Source: Phoenix dactylifera (lineage: Eukaryota > Streptophyta > Magnoliopsida > Arecales > Arecaceae). Taken from it: a DNA stretch of 64,000 nt. The notes under the pieces were generated by a model, which was not told the DNA's origin, searched no databases, and worked only from the letters and a program-made list of their open reading frames with translations. Both the position numbers and the translations under genes were made by a program. The stretch is from the NCBI RefSeq assembly GCF_009389715.1, contig NC_052392.1:37310410-37374409 (forward strand). The letters run 5' to 3'. This document shows, one piece after another, positions 39,911 through 59,706 of the stretch. Numbering within the stretch: the stretch's first letter is position 1; every line of letters begins with the position of its first letter.

Positions 39911-40850
39911 CTATATAAGGGCGTCCCCACCCTTCAGCCTCCACTCCTTGTTGTGCTTGCTCCTTCGTCGGAGTACTTGAGTGTCCAAGCTCCTGGGTGG
40001 TGCTCTGGCGAAGTCTTTCATTTCGACTTCAGCATCCCCTGCGCTCCTCCATTTTTGTGGGTACTTGCTCCTTTGGCTGCTCGACCTTTCTTGTCTTCTC
40101 ACCTCAATGTTGTGGACTAACTTTGTCCTTGGCTTTCCACTTCTTGCCGCCATGAAGACCGATCTCGTGCTGAATCACGAGAGAAGAAAGATGAAGAAGA
40201 GATGGACTGTAGCCGCCGAGGGTGACGCCTCTCAGAGGAGAAAGTCGAAGGAGGGAATCCCCTTTGGCCCATGCTGCCAAGACCACCATCGAGGTTGACG
40301 CTGAGAATTTTATTCCTGGAGTTTCCTCTAGGGTGCCCGTACCTCAAGATGAGATTGTTGAACTCAATCTCGTGGTAGAAGTCGTCCGGCTGTCTAGATG
40401 GCCCACTCCAATGGGGGCCGTCACTCCCCCATGCTAACCATCTTCCAAGGTTCGCACCTTGGTTCGATTAGATTCGAGCCTGTCTACTTTGGCCGAGGGG
40501 GCCCCTCAGCCTTCAGAATGGATGGTCGAGGAGTCCGACTCGGCTCTGGAGTCTTCAGAAGTGATGAGGGAGTTAGTCCAAGTTATACAACTCCGAGCCG
40601 ACCAAGAGCTCATACGCTCCCTCGACCCCACTAAATTTCTTGACCCATCCTTCGCTCAATCATTCGGGTAGGTTTCATAAATCTTAATTAAGTCATTTTC
40701 CTCGGCAACTAAACACTCCTCTTCTTTTTAGCACGCCATCAAGGTTGGTTGCTTGCACAATAGGTTCAAGATACCCTCAAGGAGCATCACGGAATATAGA
40801 GTGAGAGCGGAGGTCGCCAAGGAGTACGCCTGTCTGGCTGAGAGGCCATT
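39911..40850 (+). pseudogene. Possible antisense ORF region of the gypsy element
   Basis: On the plus strand, opposite to gag-pol, a TATA motif (CTATATAAGG, 39911-39920) precedes coding-like but broken frames: MKTDLVLNHERRKMKKRW near 40152 and MVEESDSALESSEVMREL near 40520. The second is followed by a plausible intron (GTAGGTTTC to TTCTTTTTAG, about 40669-40732) and EYRVRAEVAKEYACLAERPF. Tat-lineage elements of plants often carry such an antisense extra ORF between pol and the 3' LTR. This is an inference; no domain is certain. Confidence 0.4.
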
Positions 40851-40861
40851 TACGATCTGAG

Positions 40862-41680
40862 AAGGTCGAATGGCAAGCTAAGCCTTCGGTGTAGAGGCCG
40901 GTCTTCTACTTGGGCCATTTACGACCTGGAGAGGTTGGGGGGGCAAGCCAAGCCTTCGACACATGGATCGGTCTTCTACTTGGGCCATTTATGACCTGAG
41001 GAGGTCGAGTGGCGAGCCAAGCCTTCGGCACTGGAGGCAGCCTTTTGCTTGGGCCATTTACGACCTGAGAAGATCAAGTGGCAAGCCAAGCATTCGGTAC
41101 GGAACCAATCTTCTACTTGGGCTATTTATGACCTCGGGAGGTGGAGTGGCAAGCCAAGCCTTTGGCGCATGGGGCGGCCTTCTGCTTGGGCCTTTTATGA
41201 CTTGAGGAGATCGAGTGGCAAGCCAAGCCTTCGGCGCTAGGGGTGGCCTTCTGTTTGGGCCTTTTATAATTGAGGAGGTCGCGTGGCAAGCCAAGCATTC
41301 GGTGTGGGGGACGGTCTTCTACTTAGGCCATTTATGATCAGAAGGTTGAGTGGCAAGCCAAGCCTTTGGCGCGGGGGCAGTCTTCTGCTTGGGCCATTTA
41401 CGACCTCGAGAGATCGAGTGGCAAGCCAAGCCTTAGGCCTAGGGTCCGATCTTTTGTTTGGGGCATTTACGATTTGAGGAGGTTGAGTGGCAAGCCAGGC
41501 CTTCGGTCGGGGGCTAGTCTTTTACTTGGGCCATTTACAACCTAGGGAGATCAAGTGGCAAGCCAAGCCTTCAATGTAGGGGCCGGTCTTTCGCTTGGGC
41601 CATTTATGACTTGAGGAGGTCGAGTGGCAAGCTAAGCCTTCAGCCTGGGGGCCAGTCTTAAAGAGGCTCCAGGCGTCCTC
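40862..41680. repeat. Minisatellite, about 12 copies of a 67-70 bp unit
   Basis: The anchor GGCAAGCCAAGC (with small changes) recurs at 40872, 40942, 41011, 41080, 41148, 41217, 41285, 41352, 41420, 41489, 41557 and 41626. Each unit also carries TTCTGCTTGGGCCATTTACG-like sequence. The array lies in the 3' part of the gypsy element. Confidence 0.95.
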
Positions 41681-44710: not shown

Positions 44711-46474
44711 AAAACAAGGTGGCAACTGGGCATGCCCAGCTCTAAGCTGTTTTTCCCCTCCTATGCGGAAAAGTAGGCTCTGCCTTATATTTATGACATC
44801 CCTATACTCATTTCATAATTTTCTGGAAGATAAACAGAAGAAAGAAAAGCTTGAAGCTCTACTACGTACACACCCTCACTTCCATAACTTTATTCAAAAA
44901 TCTTGTATATATATATAGCATCACTCTCATATGGAGATAATCGACTTAATACCAGCAACAATGTTATGCTTACAAACAACATGTTTGAGTCTTCTAATGC
45001 AAGCCTGCTAGCTCTCTTTCAACTTTGCGCATTTGTTCCAAACATGCTGCTACCATACCAACCCACGTTATTACATTAGAAGATATGCAGACGGAGTCCC
45101 CAATCATTTCAAAGAAATGATGTGAAATATTAGGATTTGGATATGGAAGAACTAATACGAGTCAAGAATCCTGATGGAAACAAGGTGTAGGCAACAAGAC
45201 GCAGTCTTTGTTTCTTTCTAATTGTTAGTCCCGGAGCCTCTTTCATGTCCAATTCCTCTCTTGCCGCACCATGAGGGTAGCTCCCAATCGAACTGATGCA
45301 CAAGGTTTGCCAGGGCAAGCTCCACAGTAGAAGTCGCAAAGTGCATTCCTGGACAAATTCTTCGACCTGCTCCAAATGGAATAAATTGGAAATCGTTCCC
45401 TTTGAAGTCTACTGGACTGCCCAAAAACCTCTCAGGATGGAATTCCTCTGGGGCTTCCCAAGATTTCGGATCCCTGTTAATTGCCCAACAGTTGACGATG
45501 ACTCTTGTTCTCTTGGCAATATCATAGCCTTGGATTTGGCAATCCTCCATTGCTTCTCGTGGTAGCAACAATGGAGCCGCAGGGTGCAACCGCAGGACTT
45601 CCTTCAGGACGGCTTTTAAGTAGACCATCTTGTTCAATTCCTTCTCTCTCACCATGCCTCTTCCACTGGCTATCCCTCTTACCTCATCTTGTAGTTTCTT
45701 CATGACTTCTGAGTTTCGAACAAGCTCTGCCATGGCCCATTCTAGGGTTTGATAGGATGTATTGGTACCTGCAGCGAACATATCCTGGACAAAGCATTCA
45801 AGGAAAGTGAGCATGGATTAAAGCTAATAAGAACCAACAACAACAATGTCCTGCTAATGTTGGCAGCACCTACAATTCAAGAAACTATTTGCAAGATTTT
45901 GGTAACACAACCATTAGTGGCAGCACATGTAATAATCTCTCCTTTGTTGGACCATAATCATTAGTATACTTGGTAACCATTAGTGCAAATGCCCTATGTT
46001 TTCTCATTTTTCACTGCTCGTCAAGTCTGGGCACTTGCCTGGTTCATCAAGTGCTTACTTGCATCACAGCATGATATGATTAAACACGTATTAAAGTAAT
46101 TAATCATGTTTAGCTTTTCTTAACAAGCCAAAAGTAAGTCATTAAGCTAATGGGTGGCCACTTGCCTGGTGGCCTTCACTACGGGACACAATCTTTGATA
46201 GAGATTTCTTTAGTTGGGTGCCATCATTGCAGTGCTCATTAGTTTTAGCATTCTAGTTTCATTTTTTTTTTCAAAGGGAGAAATTTTAAATGTCCCAAAG
46301 TACTCTAGAAGCCTTGAGAAACAAATTGAGAAAATAGAAGAAATTTGGACCCGGCAGCTTACCAGCAAGAGTGCTTTTATGTGCTCTTCTCTAATGGCGA
46401 ACTCCAAGTTGGGATCCTTCTGAAGAGAGAGCAGTACGTCTACGAAGTCATTCTCGTGCCCTTCTTCCTTCAAC

Positions 46475-46479
46475 CGATC
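46475..46479. repeat. Left target-site duplication CGATC
   Basis: Identical to 53263-53267. The uninterrupted paralogue at 58531-58541 has CGATC once at the same place. Confidence 0.97.
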
Positions 46480-47198
46480 TGTTGAAAAAAAAAAAACTTA
46501 AATGCGCACGCGGCCAAAATCTCGGGCCGCGTGCGCGTTTGAGAAAAAGGTAACGCCCAGCGGGCGTTACGCATTTGAAAACGGACGCGTTTGAAAACGC
46601 GTCCGCAAATGACCAAACGGCCACTGTAAAAACCCCTATTTAAACCCCTTGATTTCATCTCTTTGGAAGCACGAAAAATTTCAAAAAAATAGTAAAAAAA
46701 TTCTGAAAAAATTCTTCTCCCTCTTAGCTACTTCCAAATTTTATTTTTACATTTTTATTCAGTTTATTTAGTTCTTTTTATTCCGTTCTTTGCTGGATCT
46801 GCAAGTTCGATCGGGTTCGCTTTGACTTCTTCCGAGACGTGCCGAAGAAGAGGTTGTAGGGTCGTCGTATCTCCGAGAAGGATTGCCGGGTGACCCGTAC
46901 GTGGGGGCAAATACTTCTTTGGGACAGCGTCTACGCGCTTCGACCTGCTTTCAATCAGGCTACTTTCTTCTACCTTTATTTTTAATTTAATATTAGTAGA
47001 TTGGTAGGATTTGAAATTCTATGATATAAACTTATTAAATGCATAGATTTACTTTGTGCTAGAATAGATTTATTTTGTATTAAAATAGAATTATTTGGAT
47101 GCCGAATGATATGCATGTATATTATTTCCTTTAAGATTTTTTTTTTATTAATTGAATTTATAGATTTATTTATTTAGTTAGGAGATATATTGCTAACA
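46480..47198 (+). repeat. copia 5' LTR
   Basis: 719 bp, TG...CA ends. The first 130 bp contain three consecutive inverted repeats (46500-46540, 46550-46570, 46573-46610). A TATA-like TATTTAAA lies at about 46638-46645. Sequence following it (ATCCAAAG) is not a standard primer-binding site. Confidence 0.96.
46500..46610. repeat. Three tandem inverted repeats in the LTR
   Basis: Arm pairs: 46500-46515 with 46525-46540 (15 of 16 complementary; core GCGCACGCGGCC), 46550-46558 with 46562-46570 (GTAACGCCC, 3-base loop), and 46582-46592 with 46595-46605 (CGGACGCGTTT, extended by ATTTG/CAAAT outside a four-base bulge). All are repeated unchanged in the 3' LTR. Confidence 0.95.
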
Positions 47199-48038
47199 AT
47201 CCAAAGAAGTATTTATTTTTGTTAGTAATATATAATTAATTAAATTCTTTATTACAATTGTGGCATATTAGATTTTAATTGCAATAATTGTTTTTGCTAG
47301 CACATCATCAATAATAAATTATTCTAAAGAGTTAATAATTTGGTTAACCTCCAAGAGGTTTATTATACCTCCATTTGGACTTCTCAAGGAGTAATTTCCA
47401 GATCCCATTCAAACGGGAAATTCGGAAATTGGTTGATACATAATAGTTAATCTATTGAATTGACTTATTAGATCTCAATAAATTATTCTAATAAAGGAAT
47501 AAATATTTTAATTCGCCTGAATTGACATTTTTAGATCTTAATTACAATAATTGATTTGCCATAAAATTAGTAATCAATTATTTCAATAAGGCAATAATTC
47601 AAATCTAACATATAATTCATTAAATTGATATTTTAGATCTCAATTAAAATAATTGATTTGCTACTACTAAATTAGTAATCAATCATTGCTAATTCGGAAA
47701 ATTCAAACGAAAAATTTTGAAATTAGTTAATCCACAATATCTAATTTAAATTTGCATTTAGGTTATTTTAAATATTGAATTTGTGTGATTTCTAGTGATT
47801 ATATCCACTAACTAATAGTGTCTAAGAAAAGCTTGTCAAAAAGGCATACGTGCCTAAGAAAGGCTGGTACTTAAGTGAGCCTAGTACTCCACCACCGATC
47901 TGGAGCTGATCTGGCTATTAGTTTTTTGGATATATCAATTAGACATCCAAAGTTCAATATAAATATTACTGCAATCTTTTGACATAGATTTTTTTGATTT
48001 CAATCAGGTTTCTGTCACTATTCTGTAACCCTGATCCT
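47199..48038 (+). other. copia 5' leader
   Basis: AT-rich untranslated leader. It includes repeats of TTAGATCTYAATTAMAATAA-like sequence at about 47530 and 47630, with weaker copies at about 47269 and 47465. No coding sequence. Confidence 0.7.
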
Positions 48039-51000
48039 ATGGCCTCAAACACTAGTGACCATCTTAGTGCCAAACCTGAAAAATTTGATGGCCATAACTT
48101 TAGGAGGTGGCAGAACCAAATGCGGTTCTGGCTCACCACATTAGGGTTAATCTCAGCCATAGGTGAAAGTACGATCGAAGTTGATAACGGGTCCAACCCA
48201 ACTACCTCTTCCAACACTGAACATTCTGCCTCCACTAGCACACCCTCTAGGACACCTGATGAGATAGATTATCATTGTATCCATAGAATTCTAGGTGCTC
48301 TTTCTGAGAGGCTGTATGATATCTATTACACAGCCAAGAGTGCCAAAGAACTCTGGGACACCCTAGATAGCAAATATGGTCTTGATGATGCTGGGGTAAA
48401 GAGGTTCAAGGCCTCCGATTTCAATAAGTTTAGGATGGTGGACTCAAAGCCTATGAATGACCAAATTCATGAATTTGAAACCCTGATCCACCAGCTTAGG
48501 GCTAATGGAACCAATTTGGATGAATCATTCCAGGTAGCCTGTTTGATAGATAAACTACCTACTTCCTGGTCTGATTTTGCTAAGACCCTGAGCCATACCC
48601 AAGGAATTCTCACCCTAACCCAAGTCTTAAACTCCATTAGGATTGAAGAGCAGCATAGGCTCAGAAATAATACCTCTACTGGATCTAAAAATAATGCATA
48701 TAATGTAGAAGCTCCTCCTAAGAAAAATCAGAACCGACCCTTCCGTAAGAATTTCAAGAAGAAACCCTACAACCCTAGAAACCCTAACCACCACTACAAT
48801 GGGAAGCCTATTCAATCCCAGGAGCAGAAGAAGAAGAAAGAGGAAGGTGGTGCTCGTTTCTGTTATGTGTGTGGTCGGACCAACCATTTGTCTCCACAGT
48901 GCTTCTATAAGAAGACTGCACCTCTTCAATCTAAGAAGAAGGGTCCACACACATCCAGTGCTCAAGTCAACATGGTGACTTCCGGCGCTGGCTCCTCTGA
49001 GACAGCTTTCAGGTCTGTTTCCTTCACTCCTGAAGTTAACATGACTTTACAAGCACTAGATTGGTGGATTGATACCGGAGCTGGTATTCATATTTGTTCG
49101 GATCGTTCCTGGTTTTCTTCTTACCAGATCTCAAGTGGAGGAGCTGTGATCATGGCAAACAGCTCGGAGGCACGTGTGTTAGGAGTAGGACGTGTGGACT
49201 TAAAGCTTACCTCTGGAAAAGTCCTGTCACTGCACGGCGTCCAACATGTTCCAGTTGTTAGGAGAAACCTCATTAGTGGTTCTTTGCTTGTCCAGCAAGG
49301 CTTTCGTCTTGTCTTTGAGTCCAATAAGGTTGTAATTTCTCATGGTGTTATGTTTATTGGAAAAGGATTCCTTAGTGAAGGATTGTTCAAATTGAATGTA
49401 ATAGCTCCTTCAATAAATGAAAATCCTTTGATTATGAATATAGAGCCTCCTTCTATTTGGCATGGTAGATTAGGTCATGTAAATTATAATTCAATTAAGC
49501 AACTTATGAACCTAAATCTAATACCAAAAAGTGATCTCAAGAACCATGAGAAATGTCAAACTTGTGTAGAAGCCAAACTCCCTAGGAAGCCTTTTAAATC
49601 TGTTAATAGGGATTCTGATCTATTAGAGTTGATTCATAGTGATGTTTGTGACTCTGGTAGAACTTCTAGGGGAGGTAACAGATACTTTGTAACATTTATA
49701 GATGATCTATCGAAGTTCTGTTACATCTACCTAATTAAAACCAAGGATGAGGTGCTCAGCAAATTTAAAATTTTTAAGATTGAAGCTGAGAACCAACAGG
49801 AAAAGAAAATTAAAATTCTTAGATCAGATCGGGGAGGTGAATATACATCAAATGACATAACTCAATTCTGTGAAGATCATGGAATCATTCATGAAGTGAC
49901 TGCACCCTATTCTCCCCAATCAAATGGAGTAGCAGAAAGGAAGAATAGGACTTTAATGGATATGGTGAACTCCATGCTTATAAGCTCAGGAGTACCAGAA
50001 AATTTGTGGGGGGAAGCTCTTGTTTCAGCCTGTTATATCCTTAATAGAATTCCCTCTAAAAATAATGATCTAACCCCATATGAAGTTTGGAAACATAGAA
50101 AACCTAATCTTAGCTATTTAAAAGTGTGGGGGTGCTTGGCAAAAGTAAAAATACCTGATTTTAAGAGAAAGAAAATAGGCCCTAAAACAGTGGATGCCAT
50201 ATTCATAGGTTATGCAGCCAATAGTAATGCCAATAGATTTCTGGTAATAAGTTCAGAAATAAATGATATTAGTAACAACACTATCATAGAAGCCAGAGAT
50301 GCAACATATTTTGAAGACACCTTTCCACTTAAGACTAGAGTAGATAGCGGTATAGCTAGTAGCTCTAGTAGAATAAGGACAAGAACAATAGAAGTAGAAG
50401 CAGAACCTAGGAGGAGTAAAAGATCCAGGATAGAGAAAACATTTGGAGATGATTTTTATACCTTCCTAATAGAAGACTCTCCAACTACCTTTGAGGACGC
50501 AATGAAATCTTTGGATTCACCTTTTTGGAGAGAAGCTGTGGACAATGAGATGCAATCAATTATCCAAAACCATACTTGGGAATTGACTGATCTTCCTCCT
50601 GGTTGTAAAACAATAGGATGCAAATGGATCTTTAAGAAGAAACTTAGGCCTGATGGCTCTGTAGATAAATTTAAGGCTAGATTAGTTGCCAAGGGCTTTA
50701 CTCAGAGACCTGGGGTAGATTTCTTTGATGTTTATGCACCTGTAGCTAGGATAACTACTATTAGGGTCCTTATAGCATTAGCCTCCATTCATAGATTAGT
50801 GATTCATCAGATGGATGTTAAGACAGCTTTTCTAAATGGAGACTTAAATGAAGAAATTTATATGGACCAACCAGAGGGATTTAAAACCCCAGGCCAAGAA
50901 AATAAAGTTTGCAGACTAGTCAGATCTCTTTATGGTCTTAAACAAGCACCTAAGCAATGGCATTTGAAATTTGATGAAACCATAATGACATTTGGATTTG

Positions 51001-52012
51001 AAATCAATAGCACAGACGAATGTGTATATCATAAGAGAGTTGGACACAAATTTGTGATCTTGTGCCTTTATGTAGATGATATACTGATCTTTGGGACAGA
51101 TCTTCAGATAATTGATGAAGTAAAACAATTTTTAAGTCATAAGTTTGATATGAAAGACTTGGGACAAGCTGACTTAATTTTAAATACCAAAATAATTAGA
51201 AGTGCAAATGGAATTGAGTTATCCCAAAGTCATTATGTTGACAAGATACTCAATAAATTTAATTATTCGGATTGTCAGCCTGTCTCTACTCCCTTTGATC
51301 CCTCTACACATCTTAAGAAGAACTTAGGAACTCCTATCCTTCAAAGCCTATATGCTCAAATCATAGGCTCACTAGGATTCCTAACAAACTACACTAGGCC
51401 AGACATAGCATATGCTGTAAATAGACTTAGTAGATATACTGTTAATCCAAATAGAGATCATTGGACAGCATTAGAGAGAATTCTTAGGTATCTTAAGGGT
51501 ACCAAGTCCTATAGTTTGCACTTTAGTGGGTTTCCTGCTGTTCTAGAAGGCTATAGTGATGCCAACTGGATCAGCGATACCTTAGTGTTAAATCCACCAC
51601 AGGATACGTCTTTCTCCTAGGAGGTGCTGCTGTGTCTTGGAAATCCACCAAACAAACCTTAATATCTAGGAGTACCATGGAGTCTGAACTAGCTTTAGAC
51701 ACTACTAGCACTGAGGCTGAGTGGCTCAGAGATCTACTTATAGACCTTCCTGTAGATGAGTCACCTTTACCACCTGTCTCCTTACATTGTGACTGTAAAT
51801 CTGCAATAGATAAGTGCAACCAAGAAAATGCCAATGTAAAAATGAACAGGCACTTAAAAGTACGTCATAAATCATTGAGATATAAATTGAAAAATAATGT
51901 TATTGCCTTGAATTTTGTAAAATTAGAAAATAATTTGGCTGATCAGCTTACAAAAGGTTTATCTAGAACAGTGGTTCTAGAGTCGTCGAGGGGGATGGGG
52001 CTTAGCCCATAA
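48039..52012 (+). pseudogene. copia gag-pol polyprotein, frameshifted in RNase H
   Basis: The likely start is the Met of MASNTSDHLSAKPEKF at 48039; an in-frame upstream Met at 47994 is less typical. Gag spans the first 250 residues, with a CCHC knuckle (CYVCGRTNHLSPQC, about 48861). Protease has WWIDTGAG (about 49060). Integrase has an HHCC region (HGRLGHV, CQTC) and the D-D-E core (HSDVCD, FIDD, YSPQSNGVAERKNR). Reverse transcriptase has CKWIFKKKL and the catalytic YVDD (about 51070). After GYSDANW (about 51570) one base appears to be lost and the frame moves by one. The RNase H remainder is readable at 51600-52012, with a further missing residue in MESELALDT. Confidence 0.94.
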
Positions 52013-52534
52013 AGATAGATCACCACGGTGGGAACCCAACCTTAAAAGGTTCAATGGGTAGAAACAAACCGGAGTGTGACTAAGAGGAGCACTATTTCAT
52101 GTTTTCCTCATCCCTATGGCGCTAGTGCTCATAAAAGCAAGCGGTAGGATGAGTTCGTTTGTATAATTCTTAATGAGTCCGAGACCCAAGAGGCAGGAGC
52201 TTCCTTGCTAGCTTCCTTATTAGGACTCACCTATATGTGCAATCGTGAGGCCGCGATTATGGGAAATGGGCGATTCCCTAAAAAGCACATGATAGATACC
52301 TGCGCATGGCCATAATAGCGCAATCCGCTTAGAACCCAGATCGGGCTATATTATGTGTGTTGTTGATTTAATCTGAGCCATGGACCGAGGTTCAAGGTTA
52401 AGACCACCTTGGCTCCACAGATGTAATCAATTGTCACTAAGTGAAGGTTCAAACCGAAAGGTACCTACACCTATTACATAATATAAGATATCCAGCATTT
52501 TATTTTGATTTTAAAATTATTTAAGTTTTTTTTT

Positions 52535-52543
52535 GTGGGGGAT
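52535..52543 (+). other. copia polypurine tract
   Basis: GTGGGGGAT immediately precedes the 3' LTR, the expected site for plus-strand priming. Confidence 0.8.
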
Positions 52544-53262
52544 TGTTGAAAAAAAAAAACTTAAATGCGCACGCGGCCAAAATCTCGGGCCGCGTGCGCG
52601 TTTGAGAAAAAGGTAACGCCCAGCGGGCGTTACGCATTTGAAAACGGACGCGTTTGAAAACGCGTCCGCAAATGACCAAACGGCCCCTGTAAAAACCCCT
52701 ATTTAAACCCCTTGATTTCATCTCTTTGGAAGCACGAAAAATTTCAGAAAAATAGTGAAAAAATTCTGAAAAAATTCTTCTCCCTCTTAGCTACTTCCAA
52801 ATTTTATTTTTACATTTTTATTCAGTTTATTTAGTTCTTTTCATTCCGTTCTTTGCTGGATCTGCAAGTTCGATCGGGTTCGCTTTGACTTCTTCCGAGA
52901 CGTGCCGAAGAAGAGGTTGTAGGGTCGTCGTATCTCCGAGAAGGATTGCCGGGTGACCCGTACGTGGGGGCAAATACTTCTTTGGGACAGCGTCTACGCG
53001 CTTCGACCTGCTTTCAATCAGGCTACTTTCTTCTACCTTTATTTTTAATTTAATATTAGTAGATTGGTAGGATTTGAAATTCTATGATATAAACTTATTA
53101 AATGCATAGATTTACTTTGTGCTAGAATAGATTTATTTTGTATTAAAATAGAATTATTTGGATGCCGAATGATATGCATGTATATTATTTCCTTTAAGAT
53201 TTTTTTTTTTATTAATTGAATTTATAGATTTATTTATTTAGTTAGGAGATATATTGCTAACA
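52544..53262 (+). repeat. copia 3' LTR
   Basis: 719 bp. Against the 5' LTR I see four substitutions (near 52685, 52746, 52756 and 52842) and two one-base homopolymer length changes. Confidence 0.96.
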
Positions 53263-53267
53263 CGATC
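53263..53267. repeat. Right target-site duplication CGATC
   Basis: The partner of 46475-46479; the P450 reading resumes here. Confidence 0.97.
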
Positions 53268-54071
53268 GCCATGGTCCCTGACTACCTCGTCGAGGAGACC
53301 ATCCCATCTTGTAAAGTTCCTGCGGGCTTTCGTGCTCAACCCGAATAACGCATCCAGCCATGGACGGAATGGAAAGTAGTCCTCCACATGGAATCTCCCA
53401 AGTAGAGAGGAATTGGCCTCGATTAGCTCCCGGAACAATTCATTGCGTCCTTCTCCTCTGAAGAACTTCCCTGAAACAACTCTACAGAGCATATCATTTG
53501 CGAAGAAATTTAACACCTCGCTCATGTCCACCATGCCTGTTGATGTAACAGCTCTGGAAATCTTCAGTAGCATAAAGGCAACTTCCTCCTCTCTCACGAG
53601 CTCAAAAGAGCGCACCCTTTTAGCACTCAGGAGGTGGACGGTACAGAGCTTCCTCAGGTGCCTCCAGTACTCACCGTATGGTGCAAAAGCCAGGTCCATG
53701 GATTCATAGAGCATGACCCTGGCGACCTTCAGAGAAGGCCTAGTGGAAAAGATATGATCATGAGTTCTCATGATCTCTCGGGCCATCTCTGCGGATGAAA
53801 CCACGAGGGTCGGTGCCTGACCCAGATGGAGAAGCATGAGTGGTCCATGCTTCTTGGAGAGATCCCCAAGAGAGCGATGAGGGAGAGAGCCCAGCTGGTG
53901 CAGGTTCCCAATGAATGGAAGCCTGAGTGGTGAAGGTGGGAGCCGAGTCCTTTTTGACAGGGCTCGTTTTATGAGCAGAAGGAAGGGGAAGAACGAGAGG
54001 AAAGCGAGAAGAGAATATGGCTCGACCAAGCTCTGAACTAGTGAGAACATTGTGTGATAGGCTTCTTGTGC

Positions 54072-54480
54072 TCTCCACGCCTTCTTGCGCGGCCGAAACC
54101 CTTTCTCCTCCGGATCCTCTCGCGGGCGGCGATGGTGGGGAATAAGCGCCGGTGGAGGTCGAGGGCAAGGGAGGCAGCGGCGGAGACGGCGGCGGAGAGG
54201 GAGTCGCACTTGGCCTGAAGGTCAGAGATCTGGTAGGCGGTGGATGGGGGAGCGGTCGTCGGCCGTGGTGGGGGACAGGAAGGCGTAATGGGGGAAGAAG
54301 AAGGTGAGTTTCGGTTCGGGGAGAAGAAACTGAATACTTATAAGGAGGGGTATTTTCGTCTCATAAAAATATTCTAAAGGAACGGAAATTAAATTTACTA
54401 AAATTATTGGACGGGTTGTTATAAGACTAGTCAACGGAAATTTATTGTGATACTGGAGTCTTTAGAGGGATGAAAAATAA
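54072..54480. other. Extra segment in the leader of the disrupted P450
   Basis: Compared with the paralogue (59345-59370), about 400 bp is added between the ATG region and the TATA region. The first 220 bp are GC-rich. The minus strand reads ISDLQAKCDSLSAAVSAAAS, which looks coding, possibly a captured gene fragment. No terminal repeats were found. It could instead be a deletion in the other copy. Confidence 0.45.
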
Positions 54481-54518
54481 TTTCTTATTTTTTTATTTTT
54501 TTTTTGCCCCGCACTCTC

Positions 54519-54524: not shown

Positions 54525-55965
54525 GTTGCGGAAGGCGACCTGCCGGTCCTTACACGGCATGAGGACCGAGCCCTTTGTTCAGAAGCATCCCCACTTGGTT
54601 CATTCGCATGGTTCTCATGTTGAATTATAGTTTAATGGAAACTTGAATTTCTAAAAAAAAAAATCGACAACTAGCATTAAATTCTTCAATAGTTTTCTCC
54701 ACCAATTTCGTTTCTTGCTAAAACAGATCTTGATGAAACAGAATACTTAGAGGCTCAAAATAAAGAGAAATGAAAAAATTCGAAAAGAAAAGAAAAAAAT
54801 AGAGAGAGAAAAATAAGCACAGCATGTACAAATATGGTTCGGCATAAGTTTTACTATAATAAAAAAAATAGAGTACAAAAATATAGCTATCACTAAATAA
54901 ATATCAAAATCAGATCGGTTCGTATAATGAGCTCCACCCAGTCCATAGTGGGCCCAACCGTCCGCTACCGCCACAAATCTTACAAATCTCCGATCATTTT
55001 TTTTTTCTCTTCAAATTTGTCAAACTATGATGGAACACCTACGAAAAAATTTTGGGCCCACTTAACATAGGTTCAATACAAAGAAAATGATGGCAAAGAA
55101 ACGTAAGTATATGGTAAGAGGTTGCATCCTTAATTTGTGACTATCGAGAAGATAAGTAACCACATTTTCCTTCATTCTTCTAAGCAGATTTAGAACACTG
55201 TCAAAAGGAAGATTGGAGCAAAAGTCGGATCATTTACTTCCTTGTCGGCTTATGGACTGAACCGAGCATAAAGAATAGGAAGGTCGAACTTGGAACTAAG
55301 TGCGATCAAATGGCATGAGCGCCTCATTGGTGTCCTTGTCTTTTTTTTTCTTAGCAAAGCAGAAGAAAAGGACCCCAAACAAATATTTCATTACAAATAA
55401 AATGAGTACGAAAGTAAGGGAGAAGAAAACATCAAGAAAAGAAAAAAAACAAAAAAACAAAGGAGAGGAGGGAAAAATAACAAAAGAAAAGAAAAGGCAA
55501 GAGATACCAATATGGCCCATGCATCAAGGCCCAATCCAAAAAAATGGGACTTGTAAAAGTAAAATTCAGATATAAAGACCAGAGCAGGCCCAAGCTTTCC
55601 CCATTGAGGCCCAGCCCCTCTCGGTCCATCTGGCGCACCAGAATCCAAATAATGTTTTTTTTTTTTTTTTTTTTTGCTACAATTCAGATAATATTTTTGC
55701 AGAGATAAATATGAACCAAATTGGATAATTCCAAGTTTACGACTTGCGACCACGAAATCTTTAACTGGCCGTAGGTCGCACCACGTGATTGCCGCAACTA
55801 ACATTAAGTCTCCGATTCACCTCACCGTATTAGAAGAATTAAAAAAAAAAAGATTCTCTGATGATTAGAACGAGATAAGGTTAGAGTCGTTTCATGACAA
55901 GCGCTTTCTGTCTCTTTCCTGGACAGCAGGATATCAATCAGTCGGACTAAAAGCAAAAAAAAGTA

Positions 55966-57196: not shown

Positions 57197-59322
57197 TCAA
57201 GAATCCTGATGGAAACAAGCAGGTGTAGCAACAAGACGCAGCCTTTGTTTCTTTCTAATTGTTATTCCCGGAGCCTCTTCCATATCCAGTTCCTCTCTTG
57301 CCGCACCATGAGGTAGCTCCCAATCGAACTGATGCACAAGGTTTGCCAATGCAAGCTCCACGGTAGAAGTCGCAAAGTGCATTCCGGGACAAATTCTTCG
57401 ACCTGCTCCGAATGGAATAAATTGGAAATCGTTCCCTTTGAAGTCTACTGGACTGCCCAAAAACCTCTCAGGATGGAATTCCTCTGGGGCTTCCCAAGAT
57501 TTCGGATCCCTACTAATTGCCCAACAGTTGATGATGACTCTTGTTCTCTTGGCAATATCATAGCCTTGGATTTGGCAATCCTCCATTGCTTCTCGTGGTA
57601 GCAACAATGGAGCCGCAGGATGCAACCGCAGGACTTCCTTCAGGACGGCTTTTAAGTAGACCATCTTGTTCAATTCCTTCTCTCTCACCATGCCTCTTCC
57701 ACTGGCTATCCCTCTTACCTCATCTTGTAGTTTCTTCATGACTTCTGAGTTTCGAACAAGCTCTGCCATGGCCCATTCTAGGGTTAGATAGGATGTATCG
57801 GTACCTGCAGCGAACATATCCTGGACAAAGCATTCAAGGAAAGTGAGCATGGACTAAAGCTAATAAGAATCAACAACAACAATGTCCTGCTAATGTTGGC
57901 AGCACCTACAATTCAAGAAACTTTTCGCAAGATTTTGGTAACATAACCATTAGTGGCAGCACATGTAATAATCTCTCCTTTTTTGGATCATAATCATTAG
58001 TATACTTGATAAGGTCCACCAATTCGTACATGCATGCATGGTGCAAATGCCCTATGTTTTCTCATTTTTCACTGCTCGTCAAGTCTGGGCACTTGCCTGG
58101 TTCATCAAGTGCTTACTTGCATCACAGCATGATATGATTAAACACGTATTAAACTAATTAATCATGCTTAGCTTTTCTTAACAAGCCAAAAGTAAGTCAT
58201 TAAGCTAATGGGTGGCCACTTGCCTAGGTGGCCTTCACTACGAGACACAATCTTTGATAGAGATTTCTTTAGTTGGGTGCCATCATTGCAGTGCCCGTAA
58301 GTTTTAGCATCCTAGTTTCATTTTTTTTTCCAAAGGGAGAATTTTAAATGTCCCAAAGTACTCTAGAATGTCTTGAGAAACAAAATGAGAAAATAGAAGA
58401 AAATTTGGACCCGGCAGCTTACCAGCAAGAGTGCTTTTATGTGCTCTTCTCTAATGGCGAACTCCAAGTTGGGATCCTTCTGAAGAGAGAGCAGTACGTC
58501 TACGAAGTCATTCTCGTGCCCTTCTTCCTTCAACCGATCGCCATGGTCCCTGACTACCTCGTCGAGGAGACCATCCCATCTTGTAAAGTTCCTGCGGGCT
58601 TTCGTGCTCAACCCGAATAACGCATCCAGCCATGCAAGGAATGGAAAGTAGTCCTCCACATGGAATCTCCCAAGTAGAGAGGAATTGGCCTCGATTAGCT
58701 CCCGGAACAATTCATTGCGTCCTTCTCCTCTGAAGAACTTCCCTGAAACAACTCTACAGAGTATATCATTTGCGAAGAAATTTAACACCTCGCTCATGTC
58801 CACCATGCCTGTTGATGTAACAGCTCTGGAAATCTTCAGTAGCATAAAGGCAACTTCCTCCTCTCTCACGAGCTCAAAAGAGCGCACCCTTTTGGCACTC
58901 AGGAGGTGGACGGTGCAGAGCTTCCTCAGGTGCCTCCAGTACTCACCGTATGGTGCAAAAGCCAGGTCCATGGATTCATAAAGCAAGACCCTGGCGACCT
59001 TCAGAGAAGGCCTAGTGGAAAAGATATGATCATGAGTTCTCATGATCTCTCGGGCCATCTCTGCGGATGAAACCACGAGGGTCGGTGCCTGACCCAGATG
59101 GAGAAGCATGAGCGGTCCATGCTTCTTGGAGAGATCCCCAAGAGAGCGATGAGGGAGAGAGCCCAGCTGGTGCAGGTTCCCAATGAATGGAAGCCTGAGT
59201 GGTGAAGGTGGGAGCCGAGTCCTTTTTGACAGGGCTCGTTTAATGAGCAGAAGGAAGGGGAAGAACAGGAGGAAAGCGATAAGAGAATATGGCTCGACCA
59301 GGTGCTGAACTAGCGAGAACAT
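57197..59322 (-). CDS. CYP71-type cytochrome P450 (CYP71A1-like), two exons, intact
   Basis: A microsomal mono-oxygenase of the plant A-type CYP71 clan. The substrate cannot be told from sequence. Exon 1 is 59322-58423 and exon 2 is 57820-57197, both in phase 0, giving 507 residues. The single intron (57821-58422) lies at the site conserved in CYP71 genes, just before DMFAAGTDTS. An N-terminal membrane anchor (residues 8-28, LVEPYSLIAFLLFFPFLLLI) is followed by the proline hinge PPSPLRLPFIGN. The C-helix is WRHLRKLC, the I-helix AAGTDTS (Asp present), K-helix KEVLRLHP, PERF as FHPERF, and the heme loop FIPFGAGRRICPG. It is the only complete copy in this minus-strand cluster. Confidence 0.95.
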
Positions 59323-59391: not shown

Positions 59392-59494
59392 GCTGCGGAG
59401 GGCGAGTTGCCGGTCCTTACACGGCATGAGGACCGAGCCCTTCGTTCATTCGCATGGTCAAGCTGAAATGATTCTTATGTTGAATTATAGTTTA

Positions 59495-59706
59495 ATGGAA
59501 ACTTGAATTTCTAAAAGAAAATCGAGGACTAGCATTAAATTCTTCTATAGTTTCCTCCACCAATTTCGTTTCTTGCTAAAACGGATCTTGATGGAACAGA
59601 ATGGAAACTTGAATTTCTAAAAGAAAATCGAGGACTAGCATTAAATTCTTCTATAGTTTTCTCCACCAATTTCGTTTCTTGCTAAAACGGATCTTGATGG
59701 AGCAGA
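59495..59706. repeat. Direct tandem duplication, 106-bp unit
   Basis: 59495-59600 and 59601-59706 are almost the same (both begin ATGGAAACTTGAATTTCT). The other P450 block has this segment once (about 54635-54740). It lies 170-385 bp upstream of the intact P450 start. Confidence 0.9.

Follow-up and report, generated by a model that had tools for sequence, protein, structure and literature searches.

A copia insertion in one of two tandem P450 genes of date palm and a putative self-type primer-binding site in the inserted element

A tandem pair of P450 genes in date palm (Phoenix dactylifera) raises the question of what broke one of the two copies, and of how the mobile element found inside it would begin its own copying. 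The pair lies in a stretch of 64,000 nucleotides of contig NC_052392.1 (C1 below; RefSeq assembly GCF_009389715.1, positions 37,310,410 to 37,374,409 of the forward strand), here called the window, and positions are counted from its first letter unless a contig is named. The analysis indicates that a 6783-bp Ty1/copia long terminal repeat (LTR) retrotransposon very probably entered exon 1 of one gene, copy A, in antisense orientation after that gene had diverged from its neighbour, copy B. It also suggests, with a probability of roughly three in four, that the element primes its own reverse transcription, the inferred primer being a piece of its LTR RNA in place of a transfer RNA (tRNA).

The element occupies 46480..53262 on the + strand and is bounded by two LTRs of 719 bp, delimited by their alignment at 46480..47198 (5' LTR) and 52544..53262 (3' LTR, opening with TGTTGAA at 52544). 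Both LTRs begin TGTTG and end AACA, and the letters CGATC stand directly outside them, at 46475..46479 and 53263..53267, as a 5-bp target-site duplication. A G-rich tract read from the letters at 52535..52543 (+), directly before the 3' LTR, sits in the place of a polypurine tract. Piecewise Pfam matches follow the order gag (Retrotran_gag_2), Pol beta-barrel, pre-integrase, integrase core (rve) with an SH3-like domain, and RVT_2. The LTR pair, the TG...CA ends, the short duplication and this order of gag, integrase and reverse transcriptase (RT) place the element in Ty1/copia. The gag-pol reading frame (48039..51620, +), taken from the list of open reading frames and the Pfam pieces, ends early, after the RT domain. 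A further open frame from the same list (51632..52012, +), in another phase and with no Pfam match, is read as the remainder of the polyprotein behind a frameshift; RNase H gave no Pfam match in the two pieces after RT, where the reading frame changes.

The corresponding site in copy B is uninterrupted. A solo LTR there was considered and rejected on B's own sequence, in which CGATC occurs once, at 58535..58539, as placed by the letters and the comparison of the two copies. Once the insert is removed, A and B are identical over 234 bp across the join, which is the longest identical run between them. The LTRs differ by four substitutions (three of them transitions) in 718 aligned columns, with two gap columns, one in a run of A and one in a run of T. 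These results bear out a preliminary description of the locus, which had proposed a P450 split by a 6783-bp copia element between two copies of CGATC, a paralogue keeping the site uninterrupted and LTRs differing at about four of 717 bases, and which had named a solo LTR in the paralogue as a finding that would speak against it.

An insertion event of this kind is ordinary, and an assembly join at its junctions is unlikely. The idea that the junctions are an assembly artefact draws on their being known from assembled sequence alone, in a region that is a tandem array, but it deserves hardly any credence given the canonical ends, the 5-bp duplication, the paralogue's exact and uninterrupted version of the site, and the LTR pairs that this family has elsewhere in the genome. 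No empty allele of copy A was found elsewhere in the assembly; the intact gene gave 22 matches, the only three that reach at least 95% identity are copy B and the two halves of copy A, and the published separate haplotigs apparently lay outside this search.

A putative self-type primer-binding site is located at 47201..47214 (+), 2 nt past the 5' LTR, where a primer-binding site is expected. It is the exact reverse complement of a segment at 46909..46922 (+) in the 5' LTR, which would be the self-primer and has a second copy at 52972-52985 in the 3' LTR. A tRNA primer-binding site was sought through TGG, TGGTATC and half-tRNA motifs, and none of tRNA type was found: no TGG begins within 62 bases after the 5' LTR, TGGTATC is absent from 46480-48040, and TTATGAG, TTATTAG and CTAATAA, short motifs and the only half-tRNA motifs checked, are absent from 47199-47300. 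For comparison, the primer site of Tos17 and Lullaby begins TGGTATCAGAGC, as given in a passage of PMC3977881. Among 5325 internal 20-mers, 12 held a 14-base match to the LTR, three of them overlapping windows of the primer match and nine low-complexity; outside the element the count was 14 of 57,179, all low-complexity by the filter used.

The site also lies within a predicted RNA structure. Folding of 47183-47235 gave a hairpin (47185..47233, +) in which the end of U5 (47185-47198) pairs with the leader (47220-47233) and the putative primer-binding site occupies the loop. Its energy was -14.5 kcal/mol (z -5.45); shuffled sequences averaged -3.9, and 0 of 200 were as good. Five sister copies likewise fold into a hairpin at this position, in predictions made without a shuffle control. 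In the proposed mechanism, the primer segment would be released by cutting of the element's RNA, and the LTR RNA segment 46909-46922 would pair with the site at 47201-47214, held in the loop formed by the LTR end and the leader, to start reverse transcription.

If the two segments work as a pair, their pairing should be visible in other copies of the family. In addition to the window element, 33 further 5' parts were fetched: 13 close copies, 10 diverged copies (RT 90-93% identical) and a mixed ten made up of eight sister copies (RT 82-83% identical), one copy at 88% and one at 91%. Both segments could be identified in all 13 close parts, in 6 of the 10 mixed and in 3 of the 10 diverged ones, giving 23 copies with the window element included. 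With G-U pairs allowed, all 14 positions pair in 18 of these copies and 13 positions in the other 5, the choice of 14 positions following the match length of the window element and so not being independent of it. The pairings fall into 12 distinct rows, and changes on both sides occur at 6 of the 14 positions (4, 5, 6, 10, 11 and 13). The sister family has other letters in both segments and keeps the pairing. Swapping segments between the two families lowered the number of paired positions to a mean of 10.5 (maximum 11), against 13.8 and 13.6 for their own segments. One pair is changed on both sides in the diverged copy L097; in the diverged copy L107 two pairs are changed on both sides, together with one G-U pair and one mismatch. 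Pairing kept in this way across copies supports self-primed reverse transcription.

One-sided changes were also seen. In the sister copies L079, L081 and L091, a single pair has a change in only one of its two segments, and the direction of the change is opposite between copies. At this position the LTR variant of L079 is matched by the site of L081 and L091, as if that site had been written from the RNA of another copy.

Several points weigh against self-priming. Most of the 23 copies are near-identical, so the weight of the comparison rests on the five sister copies and on L097 and L107. Only 9 of the 20 diverged or sister 5' pieces had both segments; of the other 11, seven had neither, L105 and L087 had the site only, and L100 and L108 had the LTR segment only (the pieces L083 and L093 ended within the LTR, short of where the site would be). 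A 14-base match also arose in one of 5000 first-order random LTRs. When the LTR-leader RNA is folded to minimum energy, the hairpin forms and the long-range primer pairing does not. Finally, the case has been built from the assembled sequence.

The position of the LTR segment bears on a different interpretation. It starts 430 bases into the LTR, and its end falls at LTR position 442 in this element and at 582-586 in three sister copies, where TATA-like motifs start at 158 and 285-288, respectively. The segment therefore ends 284 nt past the start of the TATA-like motif here and 296-298 nt past it in the three sister copies, distances that depend on a list of TATA-like motifs of our own and on the first of two such motifs, a second lying further downstream in each LTR. 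These distances imply that the segment may be internal to the transcript, and not its 5' end. The complementarity between leader and LTR could be a structural feature of the RNA, serving packaging or dimerisation, with another RNA acting as primer. Pairing by itself is no proof of priming, the segment is perhaps not at the 5' end of the RNA as it is in Tf1, and half-tRNA primers were checked by short motifs only. This interpretation is nevertheless unlikely, since the site lies 2 nt past the LTR, within a hairpin loop, in an element where no tRNA-type site was found, and since self-priming has already been predicted for the TAR lineage of plant Ty1/copia, including Houba and Osr-1 (PMC6317226).

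Self-priming thus remains the preferred reading, and the element can be compared with two known systems. The TAR lineage, with the rice elements Houba and Osr-1, resembles it in copia domain order, in the 5-bp duplication, in having no tRNA-type site found and in its predicted self-priming. A feature of TAR, a self-type primer-binding site instead of a tRNA site, is seen here as complementarity, and by its primer site the date-palm element fits TAR, a lineage to which it may belong. The fission yeast elements Tf1 and Tf2, which belong to Ty3/gypsy, likewise have a primer site complementary to their own RNA with RNA structure nearby, and the Tf1 primer is the first 11 bases of its own RNA, as stated in an excerpt of PMC7175516. 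Unlike in Tf1, the date-palm segment lies 430 bases into the LTR, perhaps inside the transcript, and the element belongs to a different superfamily. A tentative extension is that, where Tf1 uses the 5' terminus, the self-primer here is an internal stretch of the transcript, about 250 bases from the 5' end, cut from the element's own RNA or from a second RNA inside the particle. In each new copy the site may be written from the primer, and the match between the two segments would be maintained by this as well; we lean slightly away from this more specific form.

The date-palm genome contains recent copies of the family to which the inserted element belongs. The RT of the element gave 149 scored matches there, 13 of which have the full score of 583 bits at 100% identity. 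Open frames of 1342-1345 aa are kept in 10 of these 13, and the other three have 1210 (this element), 1166 and 1094 aa, so the family as a whole does not share the break in the frame of this element. With a 356-bp LTR query, 531 candidates were obtained, and the 40 that were scored are each 98-100% identical. Across 14 aligned LTR pairs, this one included, the divergence K ranges from 0.0014 to 0.0301; relative to the pair in the window, four of the other 13 are lower, three are equal to two digits and six are higher. The pair on C689 is only 2.1 kb apart and that on C168 is 16 kb apart, and this odd spacing shows that not all members of the family are plain full-length copies. Outside the date-palm genome, no RT relatives were found in viral_contigs, and the two loci matched in genome_contigs, at 49% and 39% identity, were too distant to use. 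These two (L009 and L010) are copia-like RT sequences in contigs filed as bacterial (Labilibacter and a Trichormus metagenome-assembled genome), probably eukaryotic contamination.

What did the insertion do to the gene? Both copies are on the - strand. Exon 1 of copy A is now in two parts, an upstream part with codons 1-261 (53268..54050, placed by Pfam and alignment to B) and a downstream part (46363..46479, placed by alignment to B); exon 2 is at 45218..45784 by the same alignment. Without the insert, exon 1 (54050..53268 plus 46479..46363) measures 900 nt, as in B. Copy B, placed by Pfam and alignment, consists of exon 1 at 58423..59322 and exon 2, with the stop codon, at 57197..57820, and encodes a protein of 507 aa in all. 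The splice donor and acceptor letters are the same in A and B. Pfam PF00067 (P450) is matched in pieces of both copies, and both carry FGAGRRICPG, an instance of the P450 haem motif FxxGxRxCxG, so both can be assigned to the P450s. The pair is presumably of CYP71 type. Among plant P450s of solved structure, ferruginol synthase (PDB 5ylw, E 7.7e-100) is the closest relative of B. The remaining 19 of the 22 genome matches to the intact gene have at most 82% identity, the nearest long ones 72-75%, and some of them lie in the same C1 array.

The element entered copy A after codon 261. From its own start codon, the frame of copy A now runs for 270 codons and stops at 53238, nine codons past codon 261 and within the 3' LTR. 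The predicted protein therefore lacks its second half, including the region of the haem-binding cysteine. We infer from this that the insertion would have terminated coding by copy A, with loss of its function, and left the neighbouring copy B intact. In the preliminary description the arrangement of the gene pair was right, whereas details needed correction: the limits of the intact gene are 57197-59322, and copy A has, in addition, a frameshift near 45275.

The age of the insertion relative to the gene pair was assessed from silent differences. Copies A and B have a synonymous divergence (dS) of 0.0461 and a nonsynonymous divergence (dN) of 0.0116 over 469 codons, and their introns differ at 17 of 566 sites without a messy indel patch, or 23 of 577 with it. 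LTR divergence is K 0.0056 (Poisson interval 0.0015-0.0143, computed with 717 sites). The LTR count of 4/717 is lower than both the intron count of 17/566 (Fisher p = 7e-4) and the synonymous count of 14.5/324, entered as 14 (p = 5e-5). Silent divergence between A and B is thus 5-8 times that between the LTRs, which makes the insertion younger than the divergence of the pair whatever the clock. Together with the uninterrupted site in B, this supports the earlier proposal that the insertion came after the gene duplication.

In absolute terms, the insertion dates to 0.22 million years (Myr; 0.06-0.55) at the grass rate of 1.3e-8, to 0.40 Myr (0.11-1.02) at 7e-9, and to 1.07 Myr (0.29-2.74) at 2.61e-9. 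According to the portion of PMC7822834 used here, 7e-9 is the rate applied there to palm LTRs and 2.61e-9 is a palm Adh rate that it quotes. At palm rates the insertion would be roughly 0.4-1.1 Myr old, with wide intervals, and the dating comes from four differences. The preliminary figure of a few hundred thousand years at grass-type rates, given with the remark that palm rates are slower, agrees with these values. Conversion between LTRs disturbs such dating, as a section of PMC7251063 warns.

Gene conversion may have affected the genes as well. Exchange after the duplication may have homogenised the gene bodies, in which case it is perhaps the most recent exchange that their divergence dates, and an insertion "after duplication" would really be one after that exchange in an older pair. 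There is about as much reason to accept this as to doubt it. Silent differences number 31/890 in the gene bodies and 98/1085 in five aligned flank pieces (p = 5e-7), and the 234-bp identical run covers the insertion point itself. However, the flank piece 54634-54881 differs by only 4.5% (11/246), resembling the gene body, and the flank pieces were picked because they are alignable, the longer stretches between them failing to align.

Copy A carries further damage, which raises the question of whether it was sound when the element arrived. One extra base near 45275 shifts and replaces its C-terminus. At the acid of the I-helix copy A has N, where all six paralogue loci covering the position (4 distinct genes) and the five solved P450s with alignments shown have D or E, and it reads RP where the paralogues L041, L042, L047 and L048 read LA, LA, LG and LS, respectively. 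Two sites run counter to this trend of decay in A, both judged by eye: at site 397 the residue of A recurs in four of the five paralogue genes and that of B in one, and at site 187 the residue of A is found in two of four paralogue genes, that of B in one and neither in one. The frameshift and the change of acid to Asn are undated and count against a sound copy A at the time of insertion; the gene could have been failing before it. It is rather unlikely, though, that the element landed as neutral debris in a paralogue that was already dying. At half the LTR divergence, the 1530 coding bases would have taken up about 4.3 substitutions since the insertion, and some four substitutions are enough for most of the decay of copy A; decay after insertion may therefore suffice, and the damage may have come either before or after the element. 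The excess of dS over dN between A and B also indicates constraint through most of their history.

Some features of the surrounding sequence were noted in their own right. About 400 bp just upstream of the start codon of copy A (54087-54488), GC-rich in the first half by eye, are absent at the equivalent place in copy B, so that either A gained a second insertion or B lost the stretch by deletion. Upstream of B a 106-bp unit occurs twice (59494-59705), against once upstream of A. A repeat array with a period of about 69 bp, in pieces 76-80% alike, lies at 40844-41659. From the right end of the window on, L046 (C1:37374328-37374912) is a P450 copy with stop codons in exon 2, a damaged member of the array. 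Contig C1364:4034-14604 repeats, with the same scores, the P450 copy of C1:37396657-37399836; C1364 also holds a P450 copy that nothing on C1 matches equally well, which points to a haplotype difference in copy number or to redundancy of the assembly.

Date palm already has a copia insertion tied to fruit colour. This is the Ibn Majid insertion in VIRESCENS, which is in an exon and has a 5-bp duplication, and which excerpts of PMC4667612 and PMC6794320 describe as about 11.7 kb long with 469-bp LTRs and a low copy number. The present element differs in its length of 6.8 kb, its 719-bp LTRs, its many near-identical copies and the lack of a known trait. A partial literature search, with the supplements of PMC6317226 outside it, found no report on the self-primer question in palms. 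The locus itself is a clean, textbook insertion, dated, with the uninterrupted site a few kilobases away. It provides a marker that can be typed across date-palm cultivars and a case of the loss of a P450 copy.

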